DNA from: a virus
IMG/VR virus record: IMGVR_UViG_3300042691_041923
Span: 1-25,478 of that record
DNA: 25,478 bases
Strand: one strand, 5' to 3'
Part shown: positions 10,393 through 25,232 of the stretch, piece after piece
How the letters are laid out: the number at the start of each line of letters is the position of its first letter
Position numbering within the stretch: position 1 is the stretch's first letter
Position numbers and translations under genes: made by a program
The notes under the pieces: model-generated
Seen by the model: only the letters and a program-made list of their open reading frames with translations
Told to the model about the DNA's origin: nothing
Database searches by the model: none

Positions 10393-10404
10393 AATTATTA
10401 TATA

Positions 10405-10941
10405 ATGAAAAAATTTGATTTAGTCTATTCTCAATTATTAAAAGAATTTAATGTAGAAGATCGTAACGACCCTTCTTTTTATGATTATGTAGTTATTTTA
10501 TTAAAACAACTTCGTAGTAATTCCAATTTAATTGATCCCAATAAATTATCAGATCTTCGCAAGACTGCCATGGAAGTAATTAAGAAAGGTTATTATCTTT
10601 TTAATGACGAAAAAAATAGCATTTCACAAAAAATTGAATTTATTTTTAAAGGCGGAAAAGACAATAATAAAAAAACAGAGGATCAATCTGTTAATAATTT
10701 AATAGTTAAAATTAGTTCTATTCCTCCTAAACCGGAAGAGAAAGCAAAAATCATAGAAGACACTTATGATGAATCTTCTATTTCAGACATTGTTAGTTAT
10801 TTAGAAACTAAAAAAGTTGAAGCGGAGACTCAAGCAGCTGCAGGTACAGAAACCCCAGCTCAAGTAGGAGAAACCCCTTCAGCTCTCCCAGGGGGTGCTC
10901 AACAACCAGCTGATACCTCCCAATATCTTAAAGGACTTTAA
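10405..10941 (+). CDS. Hypothetical protein with capsid-targeting-like N-terminus
   Basis: 178 aa. The first 14 residues, MKKFDLVYSQLLKE, resemble the short leader of T4 internal head proteins that the prohead protease cuts at (L/I)xE. Residues 15-120 are charged and helical (YVVILLKQLR, LSDLRKTAMEVIKKGYYLF). The C-terminal 40 residues are low-complexity Ala/Gly/Pro/Thr/Gln (AAAGTETPAQ, ALPGGAQQPA) and end QYLKGL. No catalytic motif seen. It could be an internal head or scaffold-associated protein. The stop shares TTAA with the convergent gene at 10938. Confidence 0.65.
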   Translation: MKKFDLVYSQLLKEFNVEDRNDPSFYDYVVILLKQLRSNSNLIDPNKLSDLRKTAMEVIKKGYYLFNDEKNSISQKIEFIFKGGKDNNKKTEDQSVNNLIVKISSIPPKPEEKAKIIEDTYDESSISDIVSYLETKKVEAETQAAAGTETPAQVGETPSALPGGAQQPADTSQYLKGL

Positions 10942-11114
10942 AGAACAGAATCTTCAAAGTCTTCAGGATCTAAATCTTGAATTTTTTCTTTTAAATAATC
11001 CACAGCGTATTCAATTTCTTTAAAGGTGTAGAATTGATTTTTAAAAATTTCTAGAATAGCTTCATCAAAAGCAGTATCTACATAACATTCAATTTCATTT
11101 TTAGTAAGTGACAT
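10938..11114 (-). CDS. Small acidic protein, 58 aa
   Basis: ATG at 11114, TAA at 10938-10940. The sequence is helical and very acidic: MSLTKNEIECYVDTAFDEAI, then YAVDYLKEKIQDLDPEDFED. The composition, the fill of a 195-nt gap and the shared TTAA stop with the gene ending at 10941 support a real gene. A GATAAATA element lies 13 nt before the ATG (11128-11135 on the minus strand). No family recognised. Confidence 0.6.
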   Translation of the reverse strand: MSLTKNEIECYVDTAFDEAILEIFKNQFYTFKEIEYAVDYLKEKIQDLDPEDFEDSVL

Positions 11115-11136
11115 ATTTTTTTTTCTTTATTTATCA

Positions 11137-11454
11137 CTACTTACACATATTTTTGAGAAAAGTTTTTTTATCATAATAAAAACAATAAATGATGAATCTT
11201 CCCTTTTCATTTATACAAACTTCATTATCTTGTTTTTCGATACCCCAAAATGCCATTTCTTCTAAATAAATATCAACTAAGTTACAAACTACCATTACAT
11301 AATTTTTATGCATGTGTAGTGGCAATTGAATTACATTAAACCAAAAAGGAATATTTTTGTAATCAAGATCGTTTACGTATTTGGTGTAACAAGAAGTAAC
11401 CCCCAAAAGAATACATTTTTCTTTTAATTCTTCGTTAAAATCAAATGCAGTCAT
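11137..11454 (-). CDS. Hypothetical protein
   Basis: 105 aa. It has no long hydrophobic helix but many aromatic and cysteine residues (KCILLGVTSCYTKYV, NIPFWFNVIQLPLHMHKNYVMVVCNLVDIYLEEMAFW). The pattern suggests a small alpha/beta fold. It starts 8 nt after the stop of the gene at 11463-11801 and is likely in the same transcript. No family recognised. Confidence 0.6.
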   Translation of the reverse strand: MTAFDFNEELKEKCILLGVTSCYTKYVNDLDYKNIPFWFNVIQLPLHMHKNYVMVVCNLVDIYLEEMAFWGIEKQDNEVCINEKGRFIIYCFYYDKKTFLKNMCK

Positions 11455-11462
11455 TCAAATCT

Positions 11463-11801
11463 TTACAATTTCCCTCCGATTCTACAAGTAGCATTCTCCC
11501 CCAAAAGATTATGCCACGCTTCTCGAACTTCTTCTCTCAAAATTTCTGCAGAAGATTCTTTAATAGCCCCTGTCCTAAAACCCGAACAGGTCAAATAATT
11601 CAAAAGACGACGAACCCTCCAAGGATTTTCTTTATCCACTTCAAAATAATTTCGCATTCTTTGAACACACTCTTTTCCTCTAATAGCCCATTTACCTTTC
11701 AACCAAAGACGTAGACTTTGCCATTCTGGATCATCCACTACGACTTGAATGTTAGTAGCTTTAACCTGACGCGCCAATTCCTGTGTTTCTTTTGTAATCA
11801 T
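11463..11801 (-). CDS. Hypothetical basic protein, possible DNA- or RNA-binding
   Basis: 112 aa. Rich in Arg and Trp: VDDPEWQSLRLWLKGKWAIRGKECVQRMRNYF, then NPWRVRRLLNYLTCSGFRTGAIKESSAEILREEVREAWHNLL. Helical and basic, with no clear domain. Base use is less AT-rich than in neighbours, which may mean a different origin. It heads a minus-strand unit that continues into 11137-11454. No family recognised. Confidence 0.6.
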   Translation of the reverse strand: MITKETQELARQVKATNIQVVVDDPEWQSLRLWLKGKWAIRGKECVQRMRNYFEVDKENPWRVRRLLNYLTCSGFRTGAIKESSAEILREEVREAWHNLLGENATCRIGGKL

Positions 11802-11871
11802 ACTTTATAAATTAAAAAGGATTTTGAAATTTTAAGCACGCTTATTTTTTTATATTTAAAAAATACATAAT

Positions 11872-12132
11872 TTAAAATTCAATTCCGAAATTAGTGAATG
11901 CGTTTAATCGAATGACTTTTCCGAAATGGTCATAATCTTTATCAATAGTACCCCCCAAATACCACATGTATGTTTTGTGATTAGGTTCGAATAATTTAAT
12001 TTTATACTCAGAATTATTTAAATTTATTAAAGAACTGGAGGAATTTTGAATAAACTTTCCGGATTCAGTAAAATTTGATGCAAAAGACACAGAACAAAAC
12101 AAAAATAAAAAACACATTAAAAAGAAATGCAT
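11872..12132 (-). CDS. Small secreted protein with signal peptide
   Basis: 86 aa. The N-terminus MHFFLMCFLFLFCSVSFA is a hydrophobic run ending S-F-A, a likely signal peptidase I site before SNF. There is no lipobox cysteine at the right place. The mature part of about 68 residues is polar and beta-rich (SEYKIKLFEPNHKTYMWYLGGTIDKDYDHFGKVIRL). A phage protein exported to the periplasm could modify the host envelope or block superinfection, but this is a guess. It has a promoter-like element at 12140-12166, which overlaps the start of the divergent gene. Confidence 0.65.
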   Translation of the reverse strand: MHFFLMCFLFLFCSVSFASNFTESGKFIQNSSSSLINLNNSEYKIKLFEPNHKTYMWYLGGTIDKDYDHFGKVIRLNAFTNFGIEF

Positions 12133-12137
12133 AAATA
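12130..12137 (+). promoter_or_regulatory. Candidate late promoter CATAAATA
   Basis: CATAAATA ends 7 nt before the ATG at 12145. It is the third exact copy of this octamer close before a start codon. An upstream ATG at 12127 would place the motif inside the coding region, which is one reason to prefer 12145. Confidence 0.4.
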
Positions 12138-12139
12138 CA

Positions 12140-12166
12140 ATTATATGAATTTTAAAGAATTTACAA
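12140..12166 (-). promoter_or_regulatory. Sigma70-like promoter for secreted protein
   Basis: Minus-strand TTGTAA (12166-12161), a 15-nt spacer, and a perfect TATAAT (12145-12140) lie 7 nt before the ATG at 12132. The element overlaps the first codons of the divergent gene, so the two genes may interfere with each other. Confidence 0.45.
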
Positions 12167-13038
12167 CTATTTTAAAGGAAGCTAAATTTAGAGAGACACC
12201 ACCCGAATTAATTAAACAAGTTAAAAAATTAACAGAACTTTATATCAATCAATATAGTAGTAGTAATGAAGATAGTGTAAAAGATCTTATTAAGAAAGGT
12301 AAAATTTTAGAATTTAATAAAAATAAATTTTACAGACCTTATTTCGAACACTTTTTAAAAGAGGATGATGAAGATCTTGCTTCAGTAGAAATGCCTGATT
12401 ATTTTGCTCCCAAATTCGGGTCCTTAACTGTTATGGATTTAGAAACAGGAAAAAAAGAAAAAATTCAAGTCATGTGTGTTTATGGTGATGTCACAGATGC
12501 TTGGGCTGCTTATAGTGATAATTTTCATACCATTAATTTATATGATGAAAATTTAAAGACTTTATCACCCGCTTTAATTGAATCAAAAATTTTACATGAA
12601 GCTACTCATGCCTTTCAACAATATAAAGGTGTTTCTGATAGATACACTAAAAAATCCAATTCAGGAGAAGATTTAGATATAGAAAATTATTATAAACGAC
12701 CCATCGAATATGATTCACATTTAAATGAAATTGTTTACAACATACGACAAAAGTTTAATATGTTGACAACTTCAATTAAAAAAGCCAAAGAAGACGCCAC
12801 TAAAAGAATATTGCAAAATAGATTGGATTTATTTTTACAAGAATTAAAAGTTTTAATTAAAGCAGATCCTGAATCTTACTTTAAACTTAAAGAATTAACT
12901 CTACCTTCTTATCTTCAAAATTTTGAAAATTTTCTAGAAACCATTAAAGGAGAATCTTCGGATGAATCACCACTTTGGAAAAAGTTTAAACTTAAAATGG
13001 TAAATCTTTATAATGAATTATCTTCTGAAAATCTTTAA
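12145..13038 (+). CDS. HExxH zinc-metalloprotease-like protein with capsid-targeting-like N-terminus
   Basis: 297 aa from ATG 12145; 12127 is a possible but less likely start. The leader MNFKEFTTILKEA resembles T4 internal-protein targeting peptides. A zincin motif lies at residues 151-155 (HEATH, within KILHEATHAFQQYKG). About 33 residues on, RPIEYDSHLNE offers E188 and H192 as a third zinc ligand, the normal order for gluzincin-like enzymes. Residues before it (YSDNFHTINLYDENLKTL) would form the edge strand. The C-terminal third is helical. If the leader is a true packaging signal, this would be a protease carried in the head and injected. Active-site residues are visible; substrate and packaging are inferred. 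Confidence 0.65.
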   Translation: MNFKEFTTILKEAKFRETPPELIKQVKKLTELYINQYSSSNEDSVKDLIKKGKILEFNKNKFYRPYFEHFLKEDDEDLASVEMPDYFAPKFGSLTVMDLETGKKEKIQVMCVYGDVTDAWAAYSDNFHTINLYDENLKTLSPALIESKILHEATHAFQQYKGVSDRYTKKSNSGEDLDIENYYKRPIEYDSHLNEIVYNIRQKFNMLTTSIKKAKEDATKRILQNRLDLFLQELKVLIKADPESYFKLKELTLPSYLQNFENFLETIKGESSDESPLWKKFKLKMVNLYNELSSENL

Positions 13039-13040
13039 AG

Positions 13041-13071
13041 TTGATAAAAATTAAAAGTATTTTACTATACT
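13041..13071 (+). promoter_or_regulatory. Sigma70-like promoter for thyX
   Basis: TTGATA (13041-13046), a 19-nt spacer, and TATACT (13066-13071) lie 8 nt before the thyX ATG. The spacer is longer than usual, but both hexamers are good. The predicted mRNA has almost no leader. Confidence 0.45.
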
Positions 13072-13079
13072 TCTAATTT

Positions 13080-13721
13080 ATGAAAGTCAAATTAATTTCT
13101 TTAACAAAACCGTTAATTGAAGGCATAAATACAGCTGAAGAATTAATTTCTTATTGTGCTAGGGTTTCTAATCCATCTAATCAACTCAATACAGAAACGG
13201 CTCCTAGACTTCTCAAGTATTGTATAGACCATCAACATTGGTCTATATTTGAACAAGCATTTATGACAGTCGAAATTAAAACATCCAGAGCTATAGCAGC
13301 TCAAATTCTTCGACATCGTTCTTTTTCTTTTCAAGAGTATAGTCAAAGGTATGCTTCAGCAAATGAATTTGAAGATATAGAGTGGAGACTTCAAGGTAAA
13401 ACTAACAGACAAGTTGGAGAAGAAGATGTGGATCTTTCACCAGAATTAAAAGACGAGGTTGATGTCGCAATAACAACATGTAAAGAACTTTATAAAAAAC
13501 TTATTGATAATGGGTTGGCTAAAGAATGCGCTCGTATGATTTTACCTCTTAATACATCCACAACACTCTATATGTCTGGAAATATTCGTTCTTGGTTGCA
13601 CTATCTTCAATTAAGAACTAAAGAAGACACCCAAAAAGAACATCGTGATATCGCCTTAGAAATTAAAAAAATATTTGTAAAACAATTTCCGGTTACCTCT
13701 TGTGCTCTTAATTGGATATAA
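13080..13721 (+). CDS. thyX: Flavin-dependent thymidylate synthase ThyX
   Basis: 213 aa, a typical ThyX length. The signature RHRxxSxxxxSxR is complete at residues 78-90 (R78 H79 R80, S83, S88, R90 in RHRSFSFQEYSQR). The N-terminal HQHWSIFEQAFMTVEI and the C-terminal SGNIRSWLHYLQLRT, which contributes to the dUMP and flavin sites, are also as expected. The enzyme makes dTMP from dUMP using methylene-tetrahydrofolate, with FAD and NADPH. It supports fast phage DNA synthesis, and AT-rich genomes need much dTMP. It has its own promoter-like element and is followed 9 nt later by a DUF5661-like gene. Confidence 0.95.
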   Translation: MKVKLISLTKPLIEGINTAEELISYCARVSNPSNQLNTETAPRLLKYCIDHQHWSIFEQAFMTVEIKTSRAIAAQILRHRSFSFQEYSQRYASANEFEDIEWRLQGKTNRQVGEEDVDLSPELKDEVDVAITTCKELYKKLIDNGLAKECARMILPLNTSTTLYMSGNIRSWLHYLQLRTKEDTQKEHRDIALEIKKIFVKQFPVTSCALNWI

Positions 13722-13730
13722 TTATATAAT

Positions 13731-14018
13731 ATGAATAATAAATTTGACACATTTTATGAAGCTCTTTTAGGTGGCTTAGCTAGAGGTAAAACTATAGAAG
13801 ACATCGCTAAAAAACACGATGTAAATTTAGAAGATTTACAAAAAGAACTTGCATTGGGTTCTAAAGTAGAATTAGAACATTTTAAAAAAGAGGGAGAAGA
13901 AGCTACTGAAGAAGACAAAAAGAATGCAGAAGTCGTAGCTAAAGACCATTTATTTGAAGATCCCAAATATTATACTAAATTATCAAAGATGGAAAAGCGT
14001 AAGGATGGCAATTTATAA
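13731..14018 (+). CDS. DUF5661-like protein
   Basis: 95 aa. The C-terminal half fits the DUF5661 pattern: GSKVELEHF, then an acidic stretch, then AEVVAKDHLFEDPKYYTKL. The N-terminal half (FDTFYEALLGGLARGKTIEDIAKKHDVNLEDLQKEL) has a helix-turn-helix-like look with KTIEDIAKKHDV. The N-terminus MNNKFDTFYEALL is only loosely like the targeting peptides of other genes here and lacks LKE. The family is found in phages; its function is unknown to me. The end overlaps the next gene by 14 nt. Confidence 0.7.
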   Translation: MNNKFDTFYEALLGGLARGKTIEDIAKKHDVNLEDLQKELALGSKVELEHFKKEGEEATEEDKKNAEVVAKDHLFEDPKYYTKLSKMEKRKDGNL

Positions 14019-14418
14019 AAATATTCAAATTACAAAATATTTTTTAGATTGTAACCCAAATACATATTTTATATTTGGGGATAATCTAGAACGAAGAGGT
14101 TATGGGGGTGCTGCAGCTTTAAGAGATCACCCGCATGCTTTTGGGTTTATTACTAAAAAATTTCCAGACAAAAGAGACACCTCTTATTATCATGTAGAAG
14201 AATACAAAGAAGTGTTTTTTGAAGAACTTCTCAAGTTAACAAAAACAATTGAAAGAAGACAAGATAAAACATTTTATATTTCTCAACTTGGTGGAGGACT
14301 TGCTAATAGGTATCTCATATGGGAAAATTTAATTAGAGATAATCTAGTCAGAACGTTATCTAAATTTGATAATGTGGTTTTTTGTTGGGAAGAAAGTTTA
14401 GTTTCTAAGTTGTCTTAA
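14005..14418 (+). CDS. FGDN-motif protein, possibly macrodomain-like
   Basis: 137 aa from ATG 14005, inside the end of the previous gene; an upstream in-frame ATG at 13954 lies deeper in that gene and its extra residues look non-coding. The key region is TYFIFGDNLERRGYGGAAAL, then HAFGFITKKFP, and later KTFYISQLGGGLANRYLIWENL. The order of a Gly-rich loop after a strand, a conserved N, and a second Gly-rich loop resembles ADP-ribose-binding macrodomains. The same FGDN-plus-GG pattern occurs in uncharacterised phage and bacterial proteins. A link to ADP-ribose or other nucleotide signalling is possible but not shown. Confidence 0.6.
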   Translation: MAIYKNIQITKYFLDCNPNTYFIFGDNLERRGYGGAAALRDHPHAFGFITKKFPDKRDTSYYHVEEYKEVFFEELLKLTKTIERRQDKTFYISQLGGGLANRYLIWENLIRDNLVRTLSKFDNVVFCWEESLVSKLS

Positions 14419-14440
14419 ACGAATAACATAAGTATATGTA

Positions 14441-15190
14441 GTGAGAACGTATACTTTTAACAACGAAATATTCATACAAATTAACGGTGTTATGAGTATG
14501 CTTGATGATATTGTTGTCGCAAGAAGGACTAAACAAAATTTCAATGAGGCAATTGATTGGATTAAAGTCCGTTTTGTATATTCTCCTAAACAAAGAGTAT
14601 TGTTAGATCTTTTAGATAAAGCACAAAATATACAATTACCAGTAGTGGCTTTTTCGTTGGGTGGTATCGCAAGAGATGCAAACAGGACTTGGAATAAATT
14701 GGGTGGTTATTATGTATCTAATCCTGATCCCGCTTATGCCAAAAAAGTACAACAACCTAACCCTATTGATATCACTTTAAATTGTTCTATATTAACAAAA
14801 TATGCGGGTGATATGGATCAAATTATTACAAATATACTTGCATGGACAAATCCTCAACACATTTTAAGTTGGAGAATACCTGGTGTTTATGACCATGAGA
14901 TTAGAAGTCCTGTAATATGGAATGGGACTTTAAACACTACATATCCCACTGATTTAAATGCTTCTCAAATAGCTCGATATCAAGCAGACACGAGTTTTAC
15001 TATTAAAGGATGGATATTCAAAAATATACCAACACAAGGAGATGCTAAAATATTTAAAATTAATTCAGATTTTTCATTAATTAATGAATTAACAACCAAA
15101 TATTCTTTAGATCAAATAGATTCTAATTTCACTGAAAGGGTTTCTATTTCAGCGGTACCTCAACCTCAAATAGTTTTAAATGAATTATGA
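14441..15190 (+). CDS. Conserved T4-like myovirus virion structural protein
   Basis: 249 aa with a GTG start at 14441. An in-frame stop directly upstream rules out an earlier start, and residues before the first internal Met ([16 protein letters not shown]) belong to the conserved region. I recall the same pattern in environmental T4-like phages: [71 protein letters not shown], and the end [15 protein letters not shown]. They annotate it as a structural protein; I cannot assign the precise component, though a tail or tail-completion role is plausible. The gene heads the second virion block and overlaps the next gene by ATGA. CATAAGTA lies 6 nt before the start. Confidence 0.7.
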
Positions 15191-16080
15191 TAAACAAAAA
15201 ATTTTTAGGACCATCTGTTTCAATAGGGGACGTAAAAACATTTTCTGTTTATGGTAAATCTTTTTTTGATATTTCTGGTTTATTTCTTTCAGGAAGTGTA
15301 TTTGATAATAATACTTTTTTTAATCCTTTTTCAGCTTCACCTAAACTTTCAGCCCAATATCCTGGATTTTCTGGTATAAAATTAAACACAGATGCATATC
15401 AATATAATAATGATAACACCTTAACATTTACCATGCCTTCAGCTTCATCTCCTGGTTATGTTGATGTTATTTTAATGAATGGTGCAGGGTGGGGTAAATT
15501 GACTCAATTCGTAATAAAAGATACAATTAACCCATTTATTTCGGGTTCAAATTTGTATAATAATTTTGAACCATATCAAAGACCTTGGAAAAATGGTATT
15601 TTAATTGAAGGTACTATTATTTTAACACCTACAGTAACAGAATCTGAGACCCCAACTCCTACACCAACAGAATCTGAAACACCTACACCTACACCAACTA
15701 ATACACCAACGGAGACCCCAACTCCAACACCAACAGTAACAGAATCTGAGACCCCAACTCCAACTGAGTCTCTTACTCCAACTCCAACAGTTACTCCGAC
15801 AGTAACAGAGACACAAGGCAATACTCCGACTCCAACACCAACAGAATCTGAAACACCTACACCTACACCTACAGTAACAGAATCTGAAACACCTACACCT
15901 ACACCTACAGTAACAGAATCTGAAACACCTACACCTACACCTACAGTAACAGAATCTGAAACACCTACACCTACAGCTACAGTAACAGAATCTGAAACAC
16001 CTACACCTACACCTACAGTAACAGAATCTGAAACACCTACACCTACACCAACGGAGACCCCAACTCCAACACCAAATTAG
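15187..16080 (+). CDS. Virion protein: Ig-like head with Thr/Pro-repeat tail
   Basis: 297 aa, stop TAG. The start overlaps the previous stop as ATGA. Residues 1-140 are beta-rich and resemble an IPT/TIG-like Ig fold ([22 protein letters not shown], and the [20 protein letters not shown] strands). After [11 protein letters not shown], residues 150-297 are only Thr/Pro repeats with Glu and Ser ([15 protein letters not shown]). The acidic, proline-rich tail should be an extended stalk and could carry O-linked sugars. The head probably docks on the virion. This is the full-length analogue of the gene truncated at the window start. Confidence 0.75.
15853..16050 (+). repeat. Tandem 36-bp coding repeat, five copies plus partial
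   Basis: Five adjacent copies of a 36-nt unit start at 15853, 15889, 15925, 15961 and 15997, followed by a partial copy. Copies are nearly identical at the nucleotide level; the fourth has GCT in place of CCT, which gives Ala for Pro. Each unit encodes 12 residues with the core [10 protein letters not shown]. Such identity, unlike the varied codons of the array at 3-740, points to recent expansion. Confidence 0.9.
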
Positions 16081-16093
16081 TTAAATATAATAT

Positions 16094-16294
16094 ATGCCAC
16101 TTTTAACTCCAATTTTATCTACAACTCCAGGTCAACCGTTGTCTTATAGCCCTTCAATGGCAGAGACCTTTTCATGGATACCTGTGTCAGGGAGTGGGAG
16201 AGGTTTATTTGCACAAGCAGTGTATCCTATTAATGTACAAGAACAATTAACAACTATTACTAATGTTCTTTGTGCTATTTTAGCTAAACCTTAA
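16094..16294 (+). CDS. Small protein at end of virion block
   Basis: 66 aa. Pro/Ser/Thr-rich first half (LLTPILSTTPGQPLSYSP), then FSWIPVSGSGRGLFAQAVYP and a final helix. GTTAAATA followed by 6 nt precedes the ATG, similar to other late-type starts. It follows the Thr/Pro protein by 13 nt, so a small virion or assembly protein is likely. The 3' end overlaps the convergent gene at 16280 by 15 nt. No family recognised. Confidence 0.55.
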   Translation: MPLLTPILSTTPGQPLSYSPSMAETFSWIPVSGSGRGLFAQAVYPINVQEQLTTITNVLCAILAKP

Positions 16295-16816: not shown

Positions 16817-16823
16817 AAAACAA

Positions 16824-18037: not shown

Positions 18038-18045
18038 ATTATTCA

Positions 18046-18073: not shown

Positions 18074-18101
18074 TAGAAGAAATTTCGAATTAAAATTTAC
18101 A

Positions 18102-18314: not shown

Positions 18315-18326
18315 AATTTTTTTAAT

Positions 18327-19406
18327 TTATAAATTTTGTTTGATTAAATCAAAGTATTGTTTTGGTGTTATTAATTTCTCATCTAAAATAGAAAAAGCTA
18401 GAGCAGAACTTTCTTTATGATTGTTTTTAATAGCTTCTGCAATTTCTCTTCGTGATGGGAAATTACGGATTCCATGAACAAATTCTTTTATTTTTTCGAT
18501 ATAATTTTTAGTTTTTTCATTAGCTTCCACTATTTTTTCCATTAAAGAAGAAAGTTGAGTAGCAATTTCAAAATCAAATTCTCTTTCTATACTTTTAAAA
18601 AATTCTTCATAAGAAGGCATTTCTTTTTCTATATAATATTCAATTAAATTATTTTCGGAATTTAATTGAGACTTGATTCGATGAATCCAAAGATACCAAT
18701 CTGATTTAATTTTGATTTTATTTTGACCTTTATTATAGGTAAGAACAATTCCTTCTTCACCTTTCCAATTTTTAACCCAATTAACAATTTGAGAAAGATC
18801 TTTTAAATTATCAATTTGATATCTTTTAGGGGTGGGCGGACACCCCAAACCTTTCCAAATTTCTATTAATTCTGCACCATGAACTAATTTTAAATTTCTT
18901 TTATCGACAGCACCCAAGAAATAAAATTTTACTTCTTGAGGTCTAATAACAATAACATTATTGGGCGTTAGAATTTCAAAGAGTAACGAATAATGAGAAT
19001 TGTTTAAAAAATATTCTTTAATCTTGGGATACTTTTCTGTCAGTATTTCAAAGTCTTTGGAGTTTTCTTGAATCTTATAAGAAGTAGTCCCCCGAGTTCT
19101 CATATTAAATTGATTATTGACAAAGTCAGCAATCAACAGAGAGCCGTCTAATTTAGATTCTACACACCAATCATTAAAATTTTGAGGATCAGGATAACAC
19201 TCTGGTTTTTCATTACAATTAAAAAATTTAGGAAACCCACATGACAATACTTCTCCCTTTTTATCTACAATAAGAGAACGAAAATGAAGATTATTAGAAT
19301 TCCATTTAGCATCTATTTGAGGGATAATTAAATAACAATCCAATCCACAAAAAGTTTGAGGATTAATATGAAAGTATCCTTCTTCTATCGGTAAATTGAT
19401 TTTCAC
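18327..19406 (-). CDS. RNA ligase, T4 Rnl1-like
   Basis: 359 aa from GTG 19406. The frame also opens at TTG 19445 (372 aa), but that TTG lies in a palindrome and in a promoter -35, so I prefer GTG. Nucleotidyl-transferase motifs are present. Before motif I, FRSLIVDKKG and FPKFFNCNE match the Rnl1 pattern. Motif I is KLDGS with the AMP-accepting K85, then RTRGT (motif Ia/III region), EGIVL (motif IV) and KIKSDWY (motif V). The C-terminal third is helical, as in Rnl1. T4 Rnl1 reseals tRNA cut by host anticodon nucleases, so an RNA-repair role against host defence is likely. No kinase domain is attached. Confidence 0.85.
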   Translation of the reverse strand: MKINLPIEEGYFHINPQTFCGLDCYLIIPQIDAKWNSNNLHFRSLIVDKKGEVLSCGFPKFFNCNEKPECYPDPQNFNDWCVESKLDGSLLIADFVNNQFNMRTRGTTSYKIQENSKDFEILTEKYPKIKEYFLNNSHYSLLFEILTPNNVIVIRPQEVKFYFLGAVDKRNLKLVHGAELIEIWKGLGCPPTPKRYQIDNLKDLSQIVNWVKNWKGEEGIVLTYNKGQNKIKIKSDWYLWIHRIKSQLNSENNLIEYYIEKEMPSYEEFFKSIEREFDFEIATQLSSLMEKIVEANEKTKNYIEKIKEFVHGIRNFPSRREIAEAIKNNHKESSALAFSILDEKLITPKQYFDLIKQNL

Positions 19407-19417
19407 TTCAAATGTTA

Positions 19418-19445
19418 ATTTTACTATATTGACTTTAAAAGTCAA
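19418..19445 (-). promoter_or_regulatory. Promoter with 17-bp palindrome (possible operator) before RNA ligase
   Basis: Minus-strand TTGACT (19445-19440), a 16-nt spacer, and TAAAAT (19423-19418) precede GTG 19406 by 11 nt. The first 17 bases (19429-19445) form a perfect palindrome of 8-bp arms around one base: TTGACTTT / AAAGTCAA. Each arm includes a TTGAC -35-like core. A repressor bound here would block the promoter. Confidence 0.5.
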
Positions 19446-19449
19446 TTAA

Positions 19450-19524
19450 TTATTGCTGTGATAGGAATGTCAAGATAACCCAAACCACAACGATAATGAT
19501 AACAGCCATATAAGAACTTTTCAT
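19450..19524 (-). CDS. 24-aa single-helix membrane peptide
   Basis: ATG at 19524 overlaps the TGA of the phosphoesterase (ATGA), and TAA lies at 19450-19452. The sequence is one hydrophobic helix (AVIIIVVVWVILTFL) with a polar start MKSSYM and end SQQ. The ATGA coupling and the ideal transmembrane pattern in an otherwise empty gap argue that it is real. Possible roles are a membrane anchor or regulator of the coupled enzyme, or a small toxin-like or superinfection peptide. None of these is shown. Confidence 0.55.
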   Translation of the reverse strand: MKSSYMAVIIIVVVWVILTFLSQQ

Positions 19525-20216
19525 ATTTTGAACTCATAAAGTTCATTAATATTTAATAATTTATGAAGGCAATTATTGATTTTTTCATATGTCGAACTGT
19601 GGAAATGACCATAGAAATGCCAAGATGGATCACATATTTTAAAAATTTTATCCATATCTTTTCTTTCTTGTGTGAGTTCTTTCAAGAGAAATTCGTCTTC
19701 TCCGGCCCAACCATAAACAATCTCATTAAACGATTGAGGAAAGCAAAAAGAAGGAGCGGTATGTGTTATAAGGACGTCGACTTTTTTACATTTATTTTTT
19801 TGAAAATTTAATCCTTCATTTTGCCAATAAGAAACATTTAACCTTCTACCCGTTCGATCAATAGAAATAGCACCACCAATAAATTGAATAAGTTTAGAAT
19901 TATACTCATAAACAGAGTAATCTTCTATTAACTCAAAATATTCTAACCCATAGTTAACGTCTTTAAAGTAATCTGGGTCATCATGATTACCTCGAATACC
20001 CTTAAAGTATATATTGTTTTCTTTAAAAAGATGATTAAGCTTAGTCATTGTTTGAAGCTGTCTTTCTTTAGATTCAAACCCTATACCTAAATCCCCCACA
20101 CTAATCAAATAACAATTTTCTAATTTATTTTTGTCAATTAAATAAAATAATTCCGACCAATTTCCGTGATGGTCACCTAAAAGAATTAAAGGTTTATCAT
20201 TATCTAATTTTTTCAT
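19521..20216 (-). CDS. Calcineurin-like metallophosphoesterase
   Basis: 231 aa. The metal-binding motifs are in order: GDHHGNW (D15, H17), GDLGIG (D42, in place of the common GDxxDR), RGNHDD (N77, H78), ITHTAPSF, and the final FYGHFHSS. The family cleaves phosphomono- or diesters, often with Mn or Fe. Phage members include protein phosphatases, 2',3'-cyclic phosphodiesterases and nucleases. The next large gene is an Rnl1-like ligase on the same strand, so a role in healing RNA 3' ends is plausible. The lack of GDxxDR points away from Ser/Thr phosphatases. Translation of the following 24-aa peptide appears coupled. Confidence 0.8.
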   Translation of the reverse strand: MKKLDNDKPLILLGDHHGNWSELFYLIDKNKLENCYLISVGDLGIGFESKERQLQTMTKLNHLFKENNIYFKGIRGNHDDPDYFKDVNYGLEYFELIEDYSVYEYNSKLIQFIGGAISIDRTGRRLNVSYWQNEGLNFQKNKCKKVDVLITHTAPSFCFPQSFNEIVYGWAGEDEFLLKELTQERKDMDKIFKICDPSWHFYGHFHSSTYEKINNCLHKLLNINELYEFKI

Positions 20217-20222
20217 GAATGT

Positions 20223-20250
20223 ATTTTAATAAAATAAAAATAAAAAACAA
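20223..20250 (-). promoter_or_regulatory. Promoter-like element for metallophosphoesterase
   Basis: Minus-strand TTGTTT (20250-20245), a 16-nt spacer, and TAAAAT (20228-20223) lie 6 nt before the ATG at 20216. The region is a long A/T tract, so the match is less informative than others. Confidence 0.35.
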
Positions 20251-20263
20251 CAAAAAATAAGGG

Positions 20264-20292
20264 TTGCAGAATTTAAAAATTTACCATAACAT
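20264..20292 (+). promoter_or_regulatory. Sigma70-like promoter for plus-strand operon
   Basis: TTGCAG (20264-20269), a 17-nt spacer, and TAACAT (20287-20292) precede the ATG at 20302 by 9 nt. It is divergent from the phosphoesterase promoter in the same 85-nt gap. Confidence 0.5.
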
Positions 20293-20301
20293 GATCGAGT
20301 A

Positions 20302-20646
20302 ATGAAAAAAATATTAACACTTATTGGTTGTTTATTTTGCGGGGGATGTGCTGTTTACAGTGATCCTTCTTATGTTGTTTCAAGACCATATAATACCCCG
20401 ATTTACAGGGCTCAAACCGGAGTATGGGAACCCCAACGTTATTATGGCAGGTTTCATAGAGACGAAATTCAAATTGCCATGGCTGATGAATTTATTAAAA
20501 ATGCTCAAGCGAATGAAATAGCTTGTAGTATGTATGGTCCTGGTAATCCGTATTCTGAATCTTTGTGGAGACGTCAAAATCAATTGAGGGAAGCAGGTGC
20601 AAGAATTCAAAACCCTTGGAATGGATATTTTCAAAATAGACATTAA
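20302..20646 (+). CDS. Small putative lipoprotein
   Basis: 114 aa. MKKILTLIGCLFCGGCAVYSD has a basic N-terminus, a short hydrophobic core and a Cys at residue 16 after G-G, which fits a lipoprotein signal although the -3 residue is Cys rather than Leu. The mature part is polar and aromatic (RPYNTPIYRAQTGVWEPQRYYGRFHRDE), followed by a helix (IQIAMADEFIKNAQANEIA) and a Trp/Arg/Gln-rich end. Phage lipoproteins of this size include outer spanins and superinfection-exclusion proteins. Spanins normally sit beside the lysozyme, which is not the case here. It leads the plus-strand unit of small genes. Confidence 0.65.
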   Translation: MKKILTLIGCLFCGGCAVYSDPSYVVSRPYNTPIYRAQTGVWEPQRYYGRFHRDEIQIAMADEFIKNAQANEIACSMYGPGNPYSESLWRRQNQLREAGARIQNPWNGYFQNRH

Positions 20647-20655
20647 TATAAAATC

Positions 20656-20874
20656 ATGATCAACAAAACACCATCCAAACGAATCCTTCTTACTAATTCT
20701 TTTTTGAATTATTATAAGGTTTATTATAATGATAGTTTGAATTATCTATTGGAAAAATATTCTTTTCAATTACTAGAAGGTACTGGAATAGAATTTCATA
20801 ATGTTTCACGGGATGATGAAAATTATATTGAAGAAGCAGAAAAAGAATTTTTAAAATATGAGTCTGGAAATTAA
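20656..20874 (+). CDS. Hypothetical small protein
   Basis: 72 aa, 9 nt after the lipoprotein stop. Tyr/Asn/Leu-rich (FLNYYKVYYNDSLNYLLEKY) with a more acidic end (DDENYIEEAEKEFLKYESGN). It looks soluble and helical. It overlaps the next gene by 17 nt. No family recognised. Confidence 0.6.
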   Translation: MINKTPSKRILLTNSFLNYYKVYYNDSLNYLLEKYSFQLLEGTGIEFHNVSRDDENYIEEAEKEFLKYESGN

Positions 20875-21049
20875 AGTTCATCGAGAAACAATTCAAGATT
20901 GTTGGTATGAGGTTATGCTCTCACCATTTAAAACCGAAGAAGAAGCTTGGGATTACATAAAAAAATACCACAAATATTATCCAATAGATCATCAAAATTA
21001 TCGTATCACCACTCCAACCAAAGTTCATTACTTTCGCGGGTGTTTTTGA
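20858..21049 (+). CDS. Hypothetical small protein
   Basis: 63 aa, starting inside the end of the previous gene. The pattern VHRETIQDCWYEVMLSPFKT and then EEEAWDYIKKYHKYYP suggests a small beta-alpha fold of the kind often seen in phage proteins that begin with a beta hairpin followed by a helix. No family recognised. Confidence 0.6.
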   Translation: MSLEIKVHRETIQDCWYEVMLSPFKTEEEAWDYIKKYHKYYPIDHQNYRITTPTKVHYFRGCF

Positions 21050-21050
21050 G

Positions 21051-21079
21051 TTGACGTTTTAAAAGAAATCTTTTATTTT
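21051..21079 (+). promoter_or_regulatory. Sigma70-like promoter
   Basis: TTGACG (21051-21056), a 17-nt spacer, and TATTTT (21074-21079) lie 8 nt before the ATG at 21088. This starts the coupled gene chain at 21088-22499. Confidence 0.5.
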
Positions 21080-21087
21080 TATTTTTA

Positions 21088-21351
21088 ATGAATATCAAAT
21101 ATTGTAAGTGTTGTGCTTCTCTTATTGAAGAAGAACGTTTGGAAGTTCTCCCAAATACTTCTTTCTGTGCTCCTTGTGCTCAAAAAATAAATCCAGTAAA
21201 ACCTAGAAAAGGATTCATGGCATTTGATCATAAAACAGGCGGAGTTCTTCAAGTAATGTCTGCTGAGGATTATGATAAGAATAAAAAGTATTTTATTCCC
21301 AATGGAAGTAGGAGTTGTGTTAAAAATTTTAGTAGGAGTGTATGTTCATGA
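21088..21351 (+). CDS. DksA/TraR-like zinc-finger protein
   Basis: 87 aa. Four cysteines form the finger: C6-x2-C9 (CKCC) and C27-x2-C30 (CAPC), joined by ASLIEEERLEVLPNTSF. The spacing and the RLExxPxxxxC segment match the C-terminal finger of DksA/TraR proteins. The usual N-terminal coiled coil is absent. In bacteria DksA binds RNA polymerase; phage relatives may do likewise, but a truncated form like this may only bind nucleic acid or protein. The remaining half (KGFMAFDHKTGGVLQVMS) is unassigned. It overlaps the next gene by ATGA. Confidence 0.65.
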   Translation: MNIKYCKCCASLIEEERLEVLPNTSFCAPCAQKINPVKPRKGFMAFDHKTGGVLQVMSAEDYDKNKKYFIPNGSRSCVKNFSRSVCS

Positions 21352-21509
21352 ATAAAGAAAAAATAAAAGATGTAGATCTTAAAAAAATAGATGATAAAAA
21401 TTATATTTTAGAATTTTTCAATAAAGGATATAATATTAAAATAGAAGCTAATGAAGCGGTTTGTTATAGCTTGTTTAGACAAATTAAAAAACATTTAAAA
21501 CTCCAATGA
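21348..21509 (+). CDS. Small charged protein, 53 aa
   Basis: Start and stop both overlap neighbours as ATGA (21348-21351 and 21506-21509), which strongly supports a real gene. The sequence is Lys/Ile/Asp-rich: MNKEKIKDVDLKKIDDKNYI, then NIKIEANEAVCYSLFRQIKK. A small beta-strand and helix fold is likely. No family recognised. Confidence 0.65.
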   Translation: MNKEKIKDVDLKKIDDKNYILEFFNKGYNIKIEANEAVCYSLFRQIKKHLKLQ

Positions 21510-21718
21510 AAGAAAATACCCTACAAGAGAAGTATCTCAAAACTCTCAAAAATTGTAAAAGCACTATCGGAGATTTACAAATTCTAGTAGAAAAAGAATA
21601 TTGTAAATTCTCAGCAAACCCTTCTAAGGATAAACAAAAAGAACTTAAAAAAATTTCTAGGATCATGGAAAAAGCTTTAATGGAAATTGTTAAACGTAAA
21701 GAATTGAACATCACATGA
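21506..21718 (+). CDS. Hypothetical small coiled-coil-like protein
   Basis: 70 aa, coupled by ATGA on both sides. Two helices rich in Lys and Glu (LQEKYLKTLKNCKSTIGDLQ, and DKQKELKKISRIMEKALMEI) suggest an antiparallel coiled coil. No membrane segment and no family recognised. Confidence 0.65.
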   Translation: MKENTLQEKYLKTLKNCKSTIGDLQILVEKEYCKFSANPSKDKQKELKKISRIMEKALMEIVKRKELNIT

Positions 21719-21948
21719 AAAAAGAAATTGACGATAAAATATACGTTCACCGAATCGCTTTAAGAGATCTTTCTCAAAAACAAGAAGAGATTTTTGAAAC
21801 ATTAGCAAAAGAACTTTGTCTTAATCGTGAAGGGGAACAGTGGATGTTCGATTACATTTATAATTCAGAAGAAGAAGAAAAGCATATTCCTTTTGATGAA
21901 TATCTTTCTTTTTATAAAGTAAATTATTCAGATTTAATAGAAAAGTGA
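21715..21948 (+). CDS. Hypothetical small acidic protein
   Basis: 77 aa, ATGA overlap before and GTGA after. The sequence is acidic and helical (VHRIALRDLSQKQEEIFETL, then a WMFDYIYNSEEEEK patch). No known motif. The tight coupling suggests it is made in a fixed ratio with the next protein. Confidence 0.65.
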   Translation: MKKEIDDKIYVHRIALRDLSQKQEEIFETLAKELCLNREGEQWMFDYIYNSEEEEKHIPFDEYLSFYKVNYSDLIEK

Positions 21949-22499
21949 CACCATCTTTCTGTAAAATCGGGTCCATACCTTTTCACTTTTATGCATTTAT
22001 AGATTCTTCTTTTACCCATAAAGACAATCAAGGCTACCAAGAAGTTATGGTAATAGGATTAACTAGTATTCCAGGTAGATGTTGGGGTCTTTCTGTTATT
22101 TTTTCACAAGGAGGAGCTTTGTATCGCCAAATACCCCCTCACGCTTTAACTTTTTCAGAAAATGCTTCTTCTTGGACTTTAGATCAGGCTCAACTTTGGA
22201 ATTGTTATTCCTATTCCTTTACCACTCTCTATAACCCTATATTAAAGGGTATGAGAATGTCGACTAAAATTCATAATAAAATTTACTATGGAGAATATCT
22301 TTTTAGTGCAACTCACATTGAAGATGGTTGGTCAAATACTCCAGAACAAGATAAAGAATTCTTTTTTATTAAATTAGATAATGGTAGATTAACCATTCAA
22401 CCTACTAACAAAATTACCTTTATTGATAAGAGTTTTATAGATAATACATCTATTGCTTCTTTAAAATTAAATGAAACGGTTTATTCTTGTTCAGAATAA
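21945..22499 (+). CDS. Conserved uncharacterised phage protein
   Basis: 184 aa with a GTG start in a GTGA overlap; no in-frame ATG lies near. I recall the same pattern in uncharacterised phage proteins: an opening around PFHFYAFIDS, then VMVIGLTSIPGRCWGLSVIF, GGALYRQIPPHAL, LDQAQLWNCYSYSF, YYGEYLFSATHIEDGWS and LDNGRLTIQPTNKITFIDKSF. It is beta-rich and has no signal or membrane segment. Function unknown. It is the last and largest gene in the coupled chain, so it may be its main product. Confidence 0.7.
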   Translation: MTPSFCKIGSIPFHFYAFIDSSFTHKDNQGYQEVMVIGLTSIPGRCWGLSVIFSQGGALYRQIPPHALTFSENASSWTLDQAQLWNCYSYSFTTLYNPILKGMRMSTKIHNKIYYGEYLFSATHIEDGWSNTPEQDKEFFFIKLDNGRLTIQPTNKITFIDKSFIDNTSIASLKLNETVYSCSE

Positions 22500-22503
22500 T
22501 TCG

Positions 22504-22531
22504 TTGATATTTTAAAAATACCCTTTATATT
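22504..22531 (+). promoter_or_regulatory. Sigma70-like promoter
   Basis: TTGATA (22504-22509), a 16-nt spacer, and TATATT (22526-22531) lie only 6 nt before the ATG at 22538. Confidence 0.5.
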
Positions 22532-22537
22532 GATTAT

Positions 22538-22726
22538 ATGATTAATAAAATTTATAATGCAGGTCTCATTCTTATTGCTACTCCATTTCTTGTGGTCGGA
22601 GGATCTTCTCTTTATACTATGTTTCAAATTGAACCAGTTGGAACTTGTTTAAATCTTTCTTTTGTTTTAGGAGCAGCATTAATTGTTATTTCTTGGTATC
22701 TTTCTGATAAAAAAGATAATGAATGA
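22538..22726 (+). CDS. Small two-helix membrane protein
   Basis: 62 aa. Two hydrophobic helices, residues about 7-30 (AGLILIATPFLVVGGSSLYTMF) and 36-55 (TCLNLSFVLGAALIVISWYL), are joined by a short loop, with a charged tail SDKKDNE. Positive residues near the N-terminus and after the second helix put both ends inside the cell. It could be an inner-membrane exclusion or holin-like protein, but it is far from the lysis genes. No family recognised. Confidence 0.65.
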   Translation: MINKIYNAGLILIATPFLVVGGSSLYTMFQIEPVGTCLNLSFVLGAALIVISWYLSDKKDNE

Positions 22727-22747
22727 AATAACAAAATTGATACAGCC

Positions 22748-22993
22748 TTAATTTGTCTTTTGAATCCCTAATTCCCAAGATTCTACAGAAGAGGATTCTT
22801 CTTTTTGTAAGAAAACAGTTAAAAGAATTTCTTCATCTTTCTGTCTCATGGAGAAATAATAATTAAAAATTTCTCCAGATTCTTTTAAAGGATAGAGAAC
22901 TTCATTAGCGACTTGTAAAAGATCCTGGGGTTCTTTCCAATTTAAAGTCGTGAGGCTTTCGATTAAAAGGGTTAAAATGTCTTCCAGATTCAT
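22748..22993 (-). CDS. Hypothetical small acidic protein
   Basis: 81 aa, MNLEDILTLLIESLTTLNWK followed by LLQVANEVLYPLKESGEIFN and a beta-rich end (EEILLTVFLQKEE). The profile is amphipathic helices and one beta hairpin. It converges with 22538-22726 and diverges from 23039. TATACT lies only 2 nt before the start, too close to be a usual promoter. No family recognised. Confidence 0.6.
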   Translation of the reverse strand: MNLEDILTLLIESLTTLNWKEPQDLLQVANEVLYPLKESGEIFNYYFSMRQKDEEILLTVFLQKEESSSVESWELGIQKTN

Positions 22994-23038
22994 GAAGTAT
23001 AATTAAAGATAAATATTATTTAAATCCCTTAAAAAAAT

Positions 23039-23254
23039 ATGAATAAATTTGATAAAGTTTATAAAAATTACGATCCTTCAACTAAAAAATTAGCTTCTTT
23101 AAACTCTAAACAAATTGAACAAATTGATCTGTTAGTAGATTATATCAGCAGTCATCTTCCTTCCTACGAAACCAAACAAGAACAAAAAGCTATCTTTGAA
23201 ACCCTTATTGAAGAAATTGAAGATGTGATGAGTATCTATCAAGATGGTTGGTAA
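23039..23254 (+). CDS. Hypothetical small helical protein
   Basis: 71 aa, MNKFDKVYKNYDPSTKKLAS, then helices SKQIEQIDLLVDYISSHL and KAIFETLIEEIEDVMSIY. The MNKFDKVY opening is similar to the other M..F leaders in this region, but it lacks the (I/L)LKE end. Acidic and soluble. Stands alone between two minus-strand genes. No family recognised. Confidence 0.6.
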   Translation: MNKFDKVYKNYDPSTKKLASLNSKQIEQIDLLVDYISSHLPSYETKQEQKAIFETLIEEIEDVMSIYQDGW

Positions 23255-23279
23255 TCTTTAAAATTAAATGATTTAAAGA
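23255..23279. repeat. 8-bp inverted repeat between convergent genes
   Basis: TCTTTAAA (23255-23262) and TTTAAAGA (23272-23279) form a perfect 8-bp stem with a 9-nt loop, placed across the stops of the genes ending at 23254 and 23273. It is A/T-rich and lacks a T-run, so it is at best a weak bidirectional terminator. Confidence 0.35.
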
Positions 23280-23803
23280 GGAGTCACAGTAGAAGGTGAT
23301 TGCCACTGTGAGAAAGGTGGAGCTTTATCAATAAAGTAAGGACCGGGAAAGTTCTTTTTGGTGTAAGAAAAGAGTTGTTTTAAAGCCGGAGAATCTTCAG
23401 GATAATCATTGTAATGCCAAAAAGAAATATAAGTTCCATCCATATTGGATTGTTTCGGCATGATGATTCCAGAGTGTTTAGTAGAAATAGTTTGAGGATT
23501 ACCTAAAATTTCTCGTTCTTTTCCATTCCAAAGACCTAAAACTTCTGGATCTTCAGATAATTTATAAACGTCACTAGGTCTTTCTTTAGGTAATATAATA
23601 CCTAAATCTTTTAAAGATTTTAACACAAAAGAATGAGTTTCTTCTCTTTCGTTTTTATCTCTTTTCTTTAAGAAAGATCCATTCTCATCTCCTATAAAGA
23701 AAATAAAATTATTGTATCGAGAGTCGAGACGATCATAAACATTCGCCACAATATCAGGATTTTCTTTTAAAATAGAAGAGACTAAAGAATCAAATAAGTT
23801 CAT
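23273..23803 (-). CDS. Hypothetical protein with capsid-targeting-like N-terminus
   Basis: 176 aa. The leader MNLFDSLVSSILKE is one of the best matches to the M..F.....(I/L)LKE pattern. The rest shows YNNFIFFIGDENGSFLKKRD, then THSFVLKSLKDLGIILP, and a C-terminal part rich in Pro/Ser/Trp (HYNDYPEDSPALKQLF, GPYFIDKAPPFSQWQSPS). No catalytic motif is evident. It follows the gene 23811-24443 by 7 nt on the same strand, so both are co-transcribed. A head-packaged protein is an inference from the leader only. Confidence 0.65.
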   Translation of the reverse strand: MNLFDSLVSSILKENPDIVANVYDRLDSRYNNFIFFIGDENGSFLKKRDKNEREETHSFVLKSLKDLGIILPKERPSDVYKLSEDPEVLGLWNGKEREILGNPQTISTKHSGIIMPKQSNMDGTYISFWHYNDYPEDSPALKQLFSYTKKNFPGPYFIDKAPPFSQWQSPSTVTPL

Positions 23804-23810
23804 ATAAGGA

Positions 23811-24443
23811 TTAAGAATTAGTTAAACGATTAAAGATTTCTTTAAGCTTTTCAAATTGTTCTAAAGATTCGGGAGACCAATGTTTATTAGGTAAAAGATC
23901 TCCCGCAGTAATTCTTTGAGAGTCTAATTCTCTCATCTTCTGATTTTCTTCGTCTCTATATCGGTTATAGGCTTTTCCTTCCTTATCCAGAAAGTCTTTT
24001 AATTCCTTTTCTGCCGAAGCCAAAGCTTGAGACTTCTCTTCTTCGGGGAGATCTTTACTATATTTGATTCTCATAACCGACATATTCAATTCTTGACGAC
24101 GCTTCTCTACCTCACTCAAATTGTATTTTCTATCTAATTCTTTTCGAAAGGACTCCATAGTATCCAAAAACATATTTTGATTGACTATATGACCTAAAGT
24201 AAAGATCAAATCGGTTAAAAGGCCTTCTGGAGTATCTGCATCGGCATATCCATTATGTTTATTCAATTGATACAAAGAATAATAAGACTCTTTATCTTTG
24301 AATTCTTTAAGAGTCATTCCTTCAAAGTTCTTTAAAAAATCTTCTAAAGATCCGGATTGTTTAACACTTAGAGCTAAATCGGATTCCGATATACGAATCC
24401 TTTGATAAGCTTGTTCTAGAAGTAATTGATCTTGAGTTTTCAT
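23811..24443 (-). CDS. Hypothetical coiled-coil protein
   Basis: 210 aa. The N-terminus MKTQDQLLLEQAYQRI loosely resembles the leaders of neighbours (LLLE in the LKE position). The centre has long charged helices (ESFRKELDRKYNLSEVEKRR, EEEKSQALASAEKELKDFLD), so a coiled coil is likely. No enzymatic motif. It could be a scaffold or internal protein, or a partner of the gene that follows it. No family recognised. Confidence 0.6.
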   Translation of the reverse strand: MKTQDQLLLEQAYQRIRISESDLALSVKQSGSLEDFLKNFEGMTLKEFKDKESYYSLYQLNKHNGYADADTPEGLLTDLIFTLGHIVNQNMFLDTMESFRKELDRKYNLSEVEKRRQELNMSVMRIKYSKDLPEEEKSQALASAEKELKDFLDKEGKAYNRYRDEENQKMRELDSQRITAGDLLPNKHWSPESLEQFEKLKEIFNRLTNS

Positions 24444-24505
24444 GAATTAATGTATTATTTAATCTCTTTAAGCTGGACTAAAAAGTAAATATACTAAATA
24501 ATAAA

Positions 24506-24832
24506 ATGAAATCCTTTAAAAACTTTTACTTAGAATCTGCTCCTTATGTGGGGAATTGCACTAATCTCTTTGACGGAGATACGGGAGAATGTGTTCTAAG
24601 AACCTTTAGAGACGTCAATGACTTCGCCGAACAAGAAGAATCCTTTAGAGAACAAGCGCAAGAAAACCCTAATCTCTTTCTTGATAGAGAAGAATTCTTG
24701 TCTTTAATTAATAAACCTTCTGACTTAGATCTTAAAGAAAATTGGGAATATTACTTCTATCCGGGAGAACCTAATGTCTACGTAGCTTATGATCCCGAGG
24801 AAGACATTCACTACTTCTTTAGTAAAAATTAA
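24506..24832 (+). CDS. Hypothetical acidic protein with targeting-like N-terminus
   Basis: 108 aa. MKSFKNFYLESA is similar to T4 internal-protein leaders (MKTYQEFIAEA), though the cut site would be YLE rather than LxE. The rest is acidic with many Asp/Glu and aromatic residues (FDGDTGECVLRTF, EFLSLINKPSDLDLKENWEY, PNVYVAYDPEEDIHYFF). No family recognised. It is the first of two co-transcribed genes; the second starts 1 nt after its stop. Confidence 0.6.
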   Translation: MKSFKNFYLESAPYVGNCTNLFDGDTGECVLRTFRDVNDFAEQEESFREQAQENPNLFLDREEFLSLINKPSDLDLKENWEYYFYPGEPNVYVAYDPEEDIHYFFSKN

Positions 24833-24833
24833 A

Positions 24834-25232
24834 ATGAAATTCGATTCCTTAATAGAAAAGATATTAAAAGAAGACTTAGATGTAAGCCTTCCTCATAACT
24901 TTAATCCTTATTCGGTAGATTCGTGTATGTATGCTGCAGAACTCTTAACTAAGAAATTATTAGATCAAGGAAAGAAAGACTTTCAGGTCATAGAAGGATT
25001 TATTAAGATTAAAGGGATCGAAGGAAAGTTTATGCATACTTGGATTGAAACTCCAGAAGGAAAGATAGATCCCACTATTAAACAATTCTTTACTAAAGAC
25101 GATAGTGATGAATATATTAAGAGTAAAGTTCAATATATTGTTAAAAAGAGATATAAACCGGAAGAGTATCAAAGCCTCTGTTCTCAATATCCCGTAGACC
25201 CTTCTAGGCATTTTATTAAAGAAAAAGAATAA
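24834..25232 (+). CDS. Putative Cys-His-Asp (transglutaminase/papain-like) protein with targeting-like N-terminus
   Basis: 132 aa from ATG 24834. A longer frame from 24789 lies in the previous gene and is rejected. The leader MKFDSLIEKILKE fits the M..F.....ILKE pattern. The order of residues then resembles a small transglutaminase or papain-like fold: C31 at the start of a helix (SCMYAAELLTKKLL), strand DFQVIEGFI, H68 in FMHTWIE, and D79 in GKIDPTI. C...HTW...DPT is a pattern seen in transglutaminase-like proteins. This is a motif reading, not a domain hit. A head-carried protease or amidase would be consistent with the leader. Confidence 0.6.
   Translation: MKFDSLIEKILKEDLDVSLPHNFNPYSVDSCMYAAELLTKKLLDQGKKDFQVIEGFIKIKGIEGKFMHTWIETPEGKIDPTIKQFFTKDDSDEYIKSKVQYIVKKRYKPEEYQSLCSQYPVDPSRHFIKEKE

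Follow-up and report, generated by a model that had tools for sequence, protein, structure and literature searches.

Why should proteins of one phage that share nothing else begin with the same short peptide? The question is raised by a 25,478-base phage fragment, IMG/VR record IMGVR_UViG_3300042691_041923 (the window, meaning this whole stretch of DNA), in which a sequence-only reading had pointed out six N-termini resembling the capsid-targeting sequence (CTS) of phage T4. All six are present, in genes starting at 10405, 12145, 24506 and 24834 on the plus strand and at 23803 and 24443 on the minus strand, and the bodies behind them are indeed unrelated: a comparison of 34 proteins gave matches for three ortholog pairs only, each between the window and a related contig, G033. 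In T4, ten residues suffice as a CTS, with residues 4 and 7 serving targeting and residues 8 and 10 processing, and the protease gp21 cuts after L/I-x-E (PMC9026906). We put the probability that the leaders described here serve as capsid-targeting propeptides like those of the T4 internal proteins at about 0.84; docking, cleavage, packaging, injection and the function of the cargo are what we infer from them. The best reading is of a larger set of leaders that comprises two or more classes.

The window alone contains no head genes. We therefore describe it together with the contig G001 (IMGVR_UViG_3300032116_000297; 51,222 bases), which is 100% identical to window positions 1-15938 and adds about 35 kb beyond the overlap, and with G033 (54,950 bases), which is related to the right end of the window. 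For comparison, eight phage records carrying gp21 and gp23 (gp21+) were set against six large records without gp21 (gp21-minus); a single ThyX search yielded all of them, and genes were called in the same way. The broad motif, [LIF]xE with its glutamate at residue 9-15, was based on the L/I-x-E specificity of T4 gp21, with F additionally allowed. It was found in 231 of 1123 genes of the gp21+ records and in 116 of 1086 genes of the gp21-minus records (P=1.4e-10), or some 110 genes in excess across the eight gp21+ records. At residues 16-22 the excess was smaller (165 vs 118), and farther positions were about equal. Three stricter leader classes were distributed 21:3, 25:7 and 19:5 between gp21+ and gp21-minus records.

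The leader regular expressions had been settled before G033 was inspected, making this held-out contig the cleanest test: 15 of its 101 genes matched (P=1.2e-10), alongside 9 of 84 genes in the window plus G001 (P=3.4e-6) and 51 of 905 genes in the other seven gp21+ phages (P=1.1e-9). The controls gave 13 matches in 1208 genes of gp21-minus phages and 31 in 2915 internal methionines of gp21+ phages, while in 49 kb of T4 sequence the expressions recovered ipII, ipIII and one other gene. Genome-wide, the leader is enriched beyond chance, the held-out contig included, and it is enriched only where a gp21 protease exists. Three further attempts were set aside. An alignment (A5) in which only M1 and E9 were conserved was excluded as evidence because its rows had been selected by the motif itself, an unsupervised expectation-maximization motif search on N-termini returned a blurred motif only and was dropped, and a gp21 test on G000 was uninformative, the window being a fragment.

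The prohead protease that a T4-like leader calls for was sought and found in the same phage. G001 encodes a gp21-type protease (PF03420, E=2.9e-28; phrog_207, 1.1e-54), a gp22-type scaffold (phrog_237, 1.3e-5; T4_CASP PF25623, 9.4e-7) and a gp23-type major capsid protein (MCP; phrog_138, 1.8e-85), which are the three components that a CTS system requires. The protease retains the motifs GE(L/M)NHP and G(V/I/M)S(S/T)RxLG, sharing the His and Ser motifs of T4 gp21. Judged by these three genes, the phage of the window is a member of the T4 superfamily that lies far from anything named; the closest named MCPs, those of cyanophages, are about 34% identical at best, and a megablast of the window against named phages gave no match.

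The scaffold of G001 begins with MDFKQILKE, the same pattern as the window leaders, and the protease with MGLKFLVE, comparable to MNEPQLLIE of T4 gp21. That the scaffold and the protease themselves bear such N-termini, and that T4 gp67, gp68 and gp24 are also processed, lends some weight to the alternative that the leaders do serve for core docking and proteolysis, while many of their proteins stay uninjected, as parts of the head structure or factors in its assembly. The 178-residue protein at 10405-10941 (plus strand) is a case in point: its leader MKKFDLVYSQLLKE (10405-10446) is kept in four orthologs that are 69-85% identical overall, it has no enzyme motif and no family match in PHROGs or Pfam, and it is present together with gp21 in G034. 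It is possibly a core or structural protein rather than cargo. For the leader set as a whole, however, accessory cargo fits better: close relatives differ in which of the genes they have, and the unrelated bodies show enzyme-like motifs. We regard the head-factor alternative as unlikely.

As a class, the leader genes are also enriched for a T4-type late promoter. A late box, scored as TAAATA or TAAGTA 3-14 nt upstream of the ATG, precedes 38 of 60 strict-class leader genes compared with 231 of 929 other genes of the same phages (P=1.5e-9), and it is not enriched in an Lx[DKQ] control. The gp21 and scaffold genes carry the same late box as the leader genes. In the window, such boxes precede the genes at 12145, 24443 (minus strand) and 24506, and the gene at 24834 directly follows that at 24506. 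This tie to late promoters and to gp21, together with the LxE ending and the likeness to T4 IPI-III and to the phage's own scaffold N-terminus, speaks against the leader being a docking peptide for another target, such as the tail, a membrane, a chaperone or a phage compartment, which we consider very improbable.

A separate observation concerns the position of these boxes. In the window, G001 and seven other gp21+ phages, TAAATA boxes lie 5-9 nt (up to 14) before the ATG, and Shine-Dalgarno sequences are nearly absent (4 of 88 genes in G001); in T4 the distance of the late box peaks at 25-29 nt, with a Shine-Dalgarno sequence. Because T4 late boxes span -13 to -6, a box 5-9 nt before the ATG suggests that late mRNAs of these phages are probably leaderless or nearly so.

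The protein at 12145-13038 (plus strand), a putative zinc metalloprotease of 297 residues with the motif HEATH, illustrates how the leader behaves in evolution. Its leader, MNFKEFTTILKE, occupies 12145-12180, and the late-promoter-like box CATAAATA lies at 12130-12137 on the same strand, 7 nt before the ATG. The mechanical open reading frame starts at 12127; the start at 12145 is correct, since three orthologs retain the box directly ahead of the ATG, in upstream DNA that otherwise differs, and in one ortholog an in-frame stop closely precedes the start. The three orthologs are 53-59% identical overall, yet the first 13 residues, MNFKEFTT(I/L)LKEA, are the same except for I/L. HExxH is retained as HEATH or HEITH in the orthologs and as HEILH and HEVYH in distant homologs. 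The latter bear leaders that differ in sequence and agree in layout: G013 has MISFKQFFTE, and G029 has MTQIFNLTIQKLLSE, which follows a TAAATA box and whose GTG start was assigned by inspection. Pfam and PDB profile searches with the 12145 protein gave no significant match, and its AlphaFold model is poor (pLDDT 58).

In class-1 leaders, codons 2-15 show few nonsynonymous and many synonymous differences (pN 0.20, pS 0.80), a sign of purifying selection, compared with pN 0.75 and pS 0.64 at codons 19-32. What is conserved is the peptide, because of this low pN relative to pS, because the leader outlasts the body of the 12145 protein, and because differing leaders keep the same layout. G033 matches the right part of the window piecewise at 71-93% identity and carries an island in which seven genes start with MKS(K/Q)D(Q/E)xLLE(E/Q/N)AY (class 1) and about a dozen have M.FDSL..ILKE-like leaders, with bodies that do not match one another. 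As expected of a CTS, a short leader (about 10-19 residues) thus stands on otherwise unrelated proteins. One of the G033 bodies is a GNAT acetyltransferase (PF13508, 2.8e-6, just above its cut-off). In another, gene 17678 (L212:17226-17678), an ADP-ribosyltransferase (ART)-like AYHGT start directly follows the leader MKFDSLIEKILKE; its matches are weak (PARP, 0.0037; ART-PolyVal, 0.0063; both below the Pfam cut-offs). Elsewhere, leader-protein bodies gave one Zn_protease and one Zeta_toxin match.

Between the orthologs of 24506 and 24834, G033 carries two extra leader genes, and the DNA at this point is mosaic. The DNA upstream of the window's 24834 gene is identical at 56/60 positions to that upstream of G033 gene 18013, its leader DNA matches gene 17678 at 41/42 positions compared with 38/42 for its own ortholog, and its body matches gene 17226 at 56/59. 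A recombination junction thus lies inside the 24834 leader, and the gain or loss of the two genes by recombination within the repeated leader accounts for it most simply. This is one clear case, from which a general role would be an extrapolation; in T4, recombination between short homologies is known (PMC9391042). The near-identical leader DNA of this one gene pair, at a recombination breakpoint, could also mean that what the N-termini preserve is a DNA or RNA element (a start-site enhancer, a recombination repeat or a recent duplication) and not a peptide signal. The freely varying synonymous sites of class 1, where the protein does not vary, and the distant metalloprotease homologs with a different leader sequence but the same layout argue otherwise; for class 1 and the metalloprotease, synonymous divergence largely refutes this explanation and leaves room for an added role only, and we consider it very improbable. 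Finally, a chance likeness of the common MK-F---L-E starts in an AT-rich genome, which the roughly 11% of control-phage genes carrying LxE at 9-15 might suggest, is refuted for the set by all the enrichment tests, the internal-methionine and gp21-minus controls among them, and has a negligible probability there, though it may apply to a single loose member such as the protein at 13731.

Several observations weigh against the capsid-targeting interpretation. About half of the LxE matches at 9-15 in gp21+ genomes are background, and since about 11% of control-phage genes have such a match, single loose cases are uninformative. The regular-expression classes were shaped after some gp21+ genomes had been inspected. 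The link to gp21 is a correlation, since the gp21+ and gp21-minus groups could also be set apart by features besides the protease. No late box was seen before 10405 or before 23803 (minus strand), and 22 of the 60 strict-class leader genes were scored as boxless, the 12145 gene being among them solely through the caller's upstream start. Lastly, the expected agreement between the cut sites of leaders and MCP stood in part. In alignments, most of the distinct MCPs of relatives have L/I-x-E soon after an ENQ block that is also found in T4 gp23, and most relatives thus agree with the leaders; in G001 and the related G034, the MCP reads WCFE|A at the homologous position. The site in this phage agrees with a Glu-specific gp21 and not strictly with L/I-x-E, the cut being placed by alignment.

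A protein of 72 residues in G028 (L114:9509-9727) combines the leader MKSFKSYIHE with a mimic of the MCP N-arm (GGVFGTGG...YASGDSRVPHVLG; phmmer 1e-7 to the G001 MCP) and is similar to L101:17085, L120:8228 and L184:4120. It is possibly a head-assembly or decoy protein.

The remaining leader genes of the window lie at its right end. The 176-residue protein at 23273-23803 (minus strand) has the leader MNLFDSLVSSILKE (23762-23803), which is kept in a G033 ortholog of 67% identity. The 210-residue protein at 23811-24443 (minus strand), with a late box 12 nt upstream, starts with the class-1 leader MKTQDQLLLEQAY (about 24402-24443). Its MKTQDQLLLE had been taken for a loose copy of the main pattern; it belongs instead to a second leader class, MKS(K/Q)DQxLLEEAY. 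The leader is common to seven G033 genes with unrelated bodies, and the gene itself is missing at the matching place in G033. A 108-residue protein at 24506-24832 (plus strand), which has an ortholog in G033, carries MKSFKNFYLE (24506-24535) and a late box 5 nt upstream. One nucleotide past its stop begins the gene at 24834-25232 (plus strand), whose ortholog starts at the same place. It encodes a putative Cys-His-Asp hydrolase of 132 residues, recognised by eye from its motif, with the leader MKFDSLIEKILKE (24834-24872); a PDB search returned chance-level matches only, and the AlphaFold model has low confidence (pLDDT 48). Class-2 leaders have F3 or F4 and a hydrophobic residue near 6-8, which fits targeting by aromatic or hydrophobic residues at about 4 and 7, and class 1 (MKSQDQxLLEEAY) has no aromatic residue at 4, possibly reflecting a second docking mode. 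The four main window leaders end in LKE, class 1 in LLE, and MKSFKNFYLE in Y-x-E instead of L/I-x-E. LKE, proposed earlier as the cut-site ending, is thus common in this lineage but not general, as other phages use LVE, LNE, LLE and ITE.

A DUF5661 protein at 13731-14018 (plus strand; PF18905, E=6.9e-15) starts with the leader-like MNNKFDTFYEALLGG, without LxE, and its homolog in G002 with MNKFDSLLESLLNG; its membership of the leader set is doubtful. It gave the only significant family among the window leader proteins in PHROGs and Pfam. When 51 leader proteins were scanned with PADLOC, none matched a defence family, and a tblastn search of named phages with a 20-residue class-1 leader gave no match, which is weakly informative at such a length. 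The LxE-type starts of the genes at 4093 (minus strand), 11137 (minus strand) and 13080 (ThyX) were discarded as poor fits to the leader classes or as ordinary enzymes. Elsewhere in the window, an 893-residue protein (936-3617) has TSLSSTWQNCSSLTTFP-type repeats, BspA-like by eye, with PHROG matches of unknown function, and DNA repeats around it produce many self-matches; the protein at 15187-16080 ends in long repeats; and a 120-residue protein at 5532-5894 (minus strand) contains HECIHYLYPDWSE, a SprT-like zinc motif by eye, and is kept leaderless in several gp21+ phages.

Among known systems, the closest are T4 IPI, IPII and IPIII (CTS MKTYQEFIAE), in which a short N-terminal leader with L/I-x-E at residue ~10 likewise stands on unrelated bodies in a phage with gp21 and a gp22-type scaffold. 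MKSFKNFYLE of 24506 fits the residue pattern of MKTYQEFIAE in IPIII, and MNFKEFTT of 12145 resembles MKTFKEFTS of IPI. The present system, in which packaging is predicted, differs from these: leader genes are far more numerous, their leaders fall into two or more classes, cargo islands occur, and the bodies are mostly unknown, some with enzyme-like motifs. Gene 17678 of G033, with its ART-like start behind a leader, is a possible analogue of T4 Alt, a packaged and injected ADP-ribosyltransferase, although its match is weak and it comes from a phage other than that of the window. In phiKZ and SPN3US, head and ejection proteins have gp175/gp245 propeptides, a gp21 relative cleaves head proteins on the C-terminal side of Glu, and cargo is ejected (PMC10052503, PMC9026906), but the specificity is A/S-x-E and the propeptides are mostly long. 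The N-terminal 30 residues of phage P1 DarB suffice for capsid targeting (PMC9024508), whereas the Dar proteins have no shared consensus and P1 apparently has no separate scaffold.

Taken together, these data suggest the following course of events. The leader would be a short peptide in which residues around 3-4 and 6-8 are aromatic or aliphatic and L/I/F-x-E falls at 9-15. Late in infection, it would dock its protein on the gp22-type scaffold core within the prohead, and during head maturation the gp21-type protease would cut after the glutamate and the leader would leave. The unrelated body would remain in the head and be delivered with the DNA. We think it fairly probable that most bodies are injected effectors; the putative zinc metalloprotease and possible Cys hydrolase, and in relatives the GNAT and weak ART proteins, would most likely act in anti-defence or host takeover. 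The injected internal proteins of T4 are few, and two are known or thought to be anti-defence, IPI acting against GmrSD and IPIII being needed on ECOR17 (PMC9391042).

A recent review suggests only that the CTS may be a general protein-loading route for T4-like phages (PMC9026906), and this idea is tested here in phages far from T4. Full-text searches, in a collection with few subscription papers, turned up studies of capsid targeting in T4, P1 and giant phages; none of the texts joined 'capsid targeting sequence' with metagenomes, the same term with cyanophages gave one match, a T4 review, and no priority is claimed. In each genome, the rule of leader, gp21 and late promoter singles out about a dozen proteins as candidates for injection, and most of these belong to no known family. 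This list is a direct route to new proteins that counter defences or take over hosts, and protein delivery in T4-type capsids may draw on the natural leader variants. More tentatively, with the odds slightly against it, a large group of uncultured T4-superfamily phages may practise modular capsid delivery, in which at least two leader classes would serve as interchangeable zip codes, leader repeats as recombination splice points where cargo is gained and lost, and about a dozen injected, mostly uncharacterised effectors per genome would be gathered in islands. If this were true, injected counter-defence proteins could be found from their N-termini alone.

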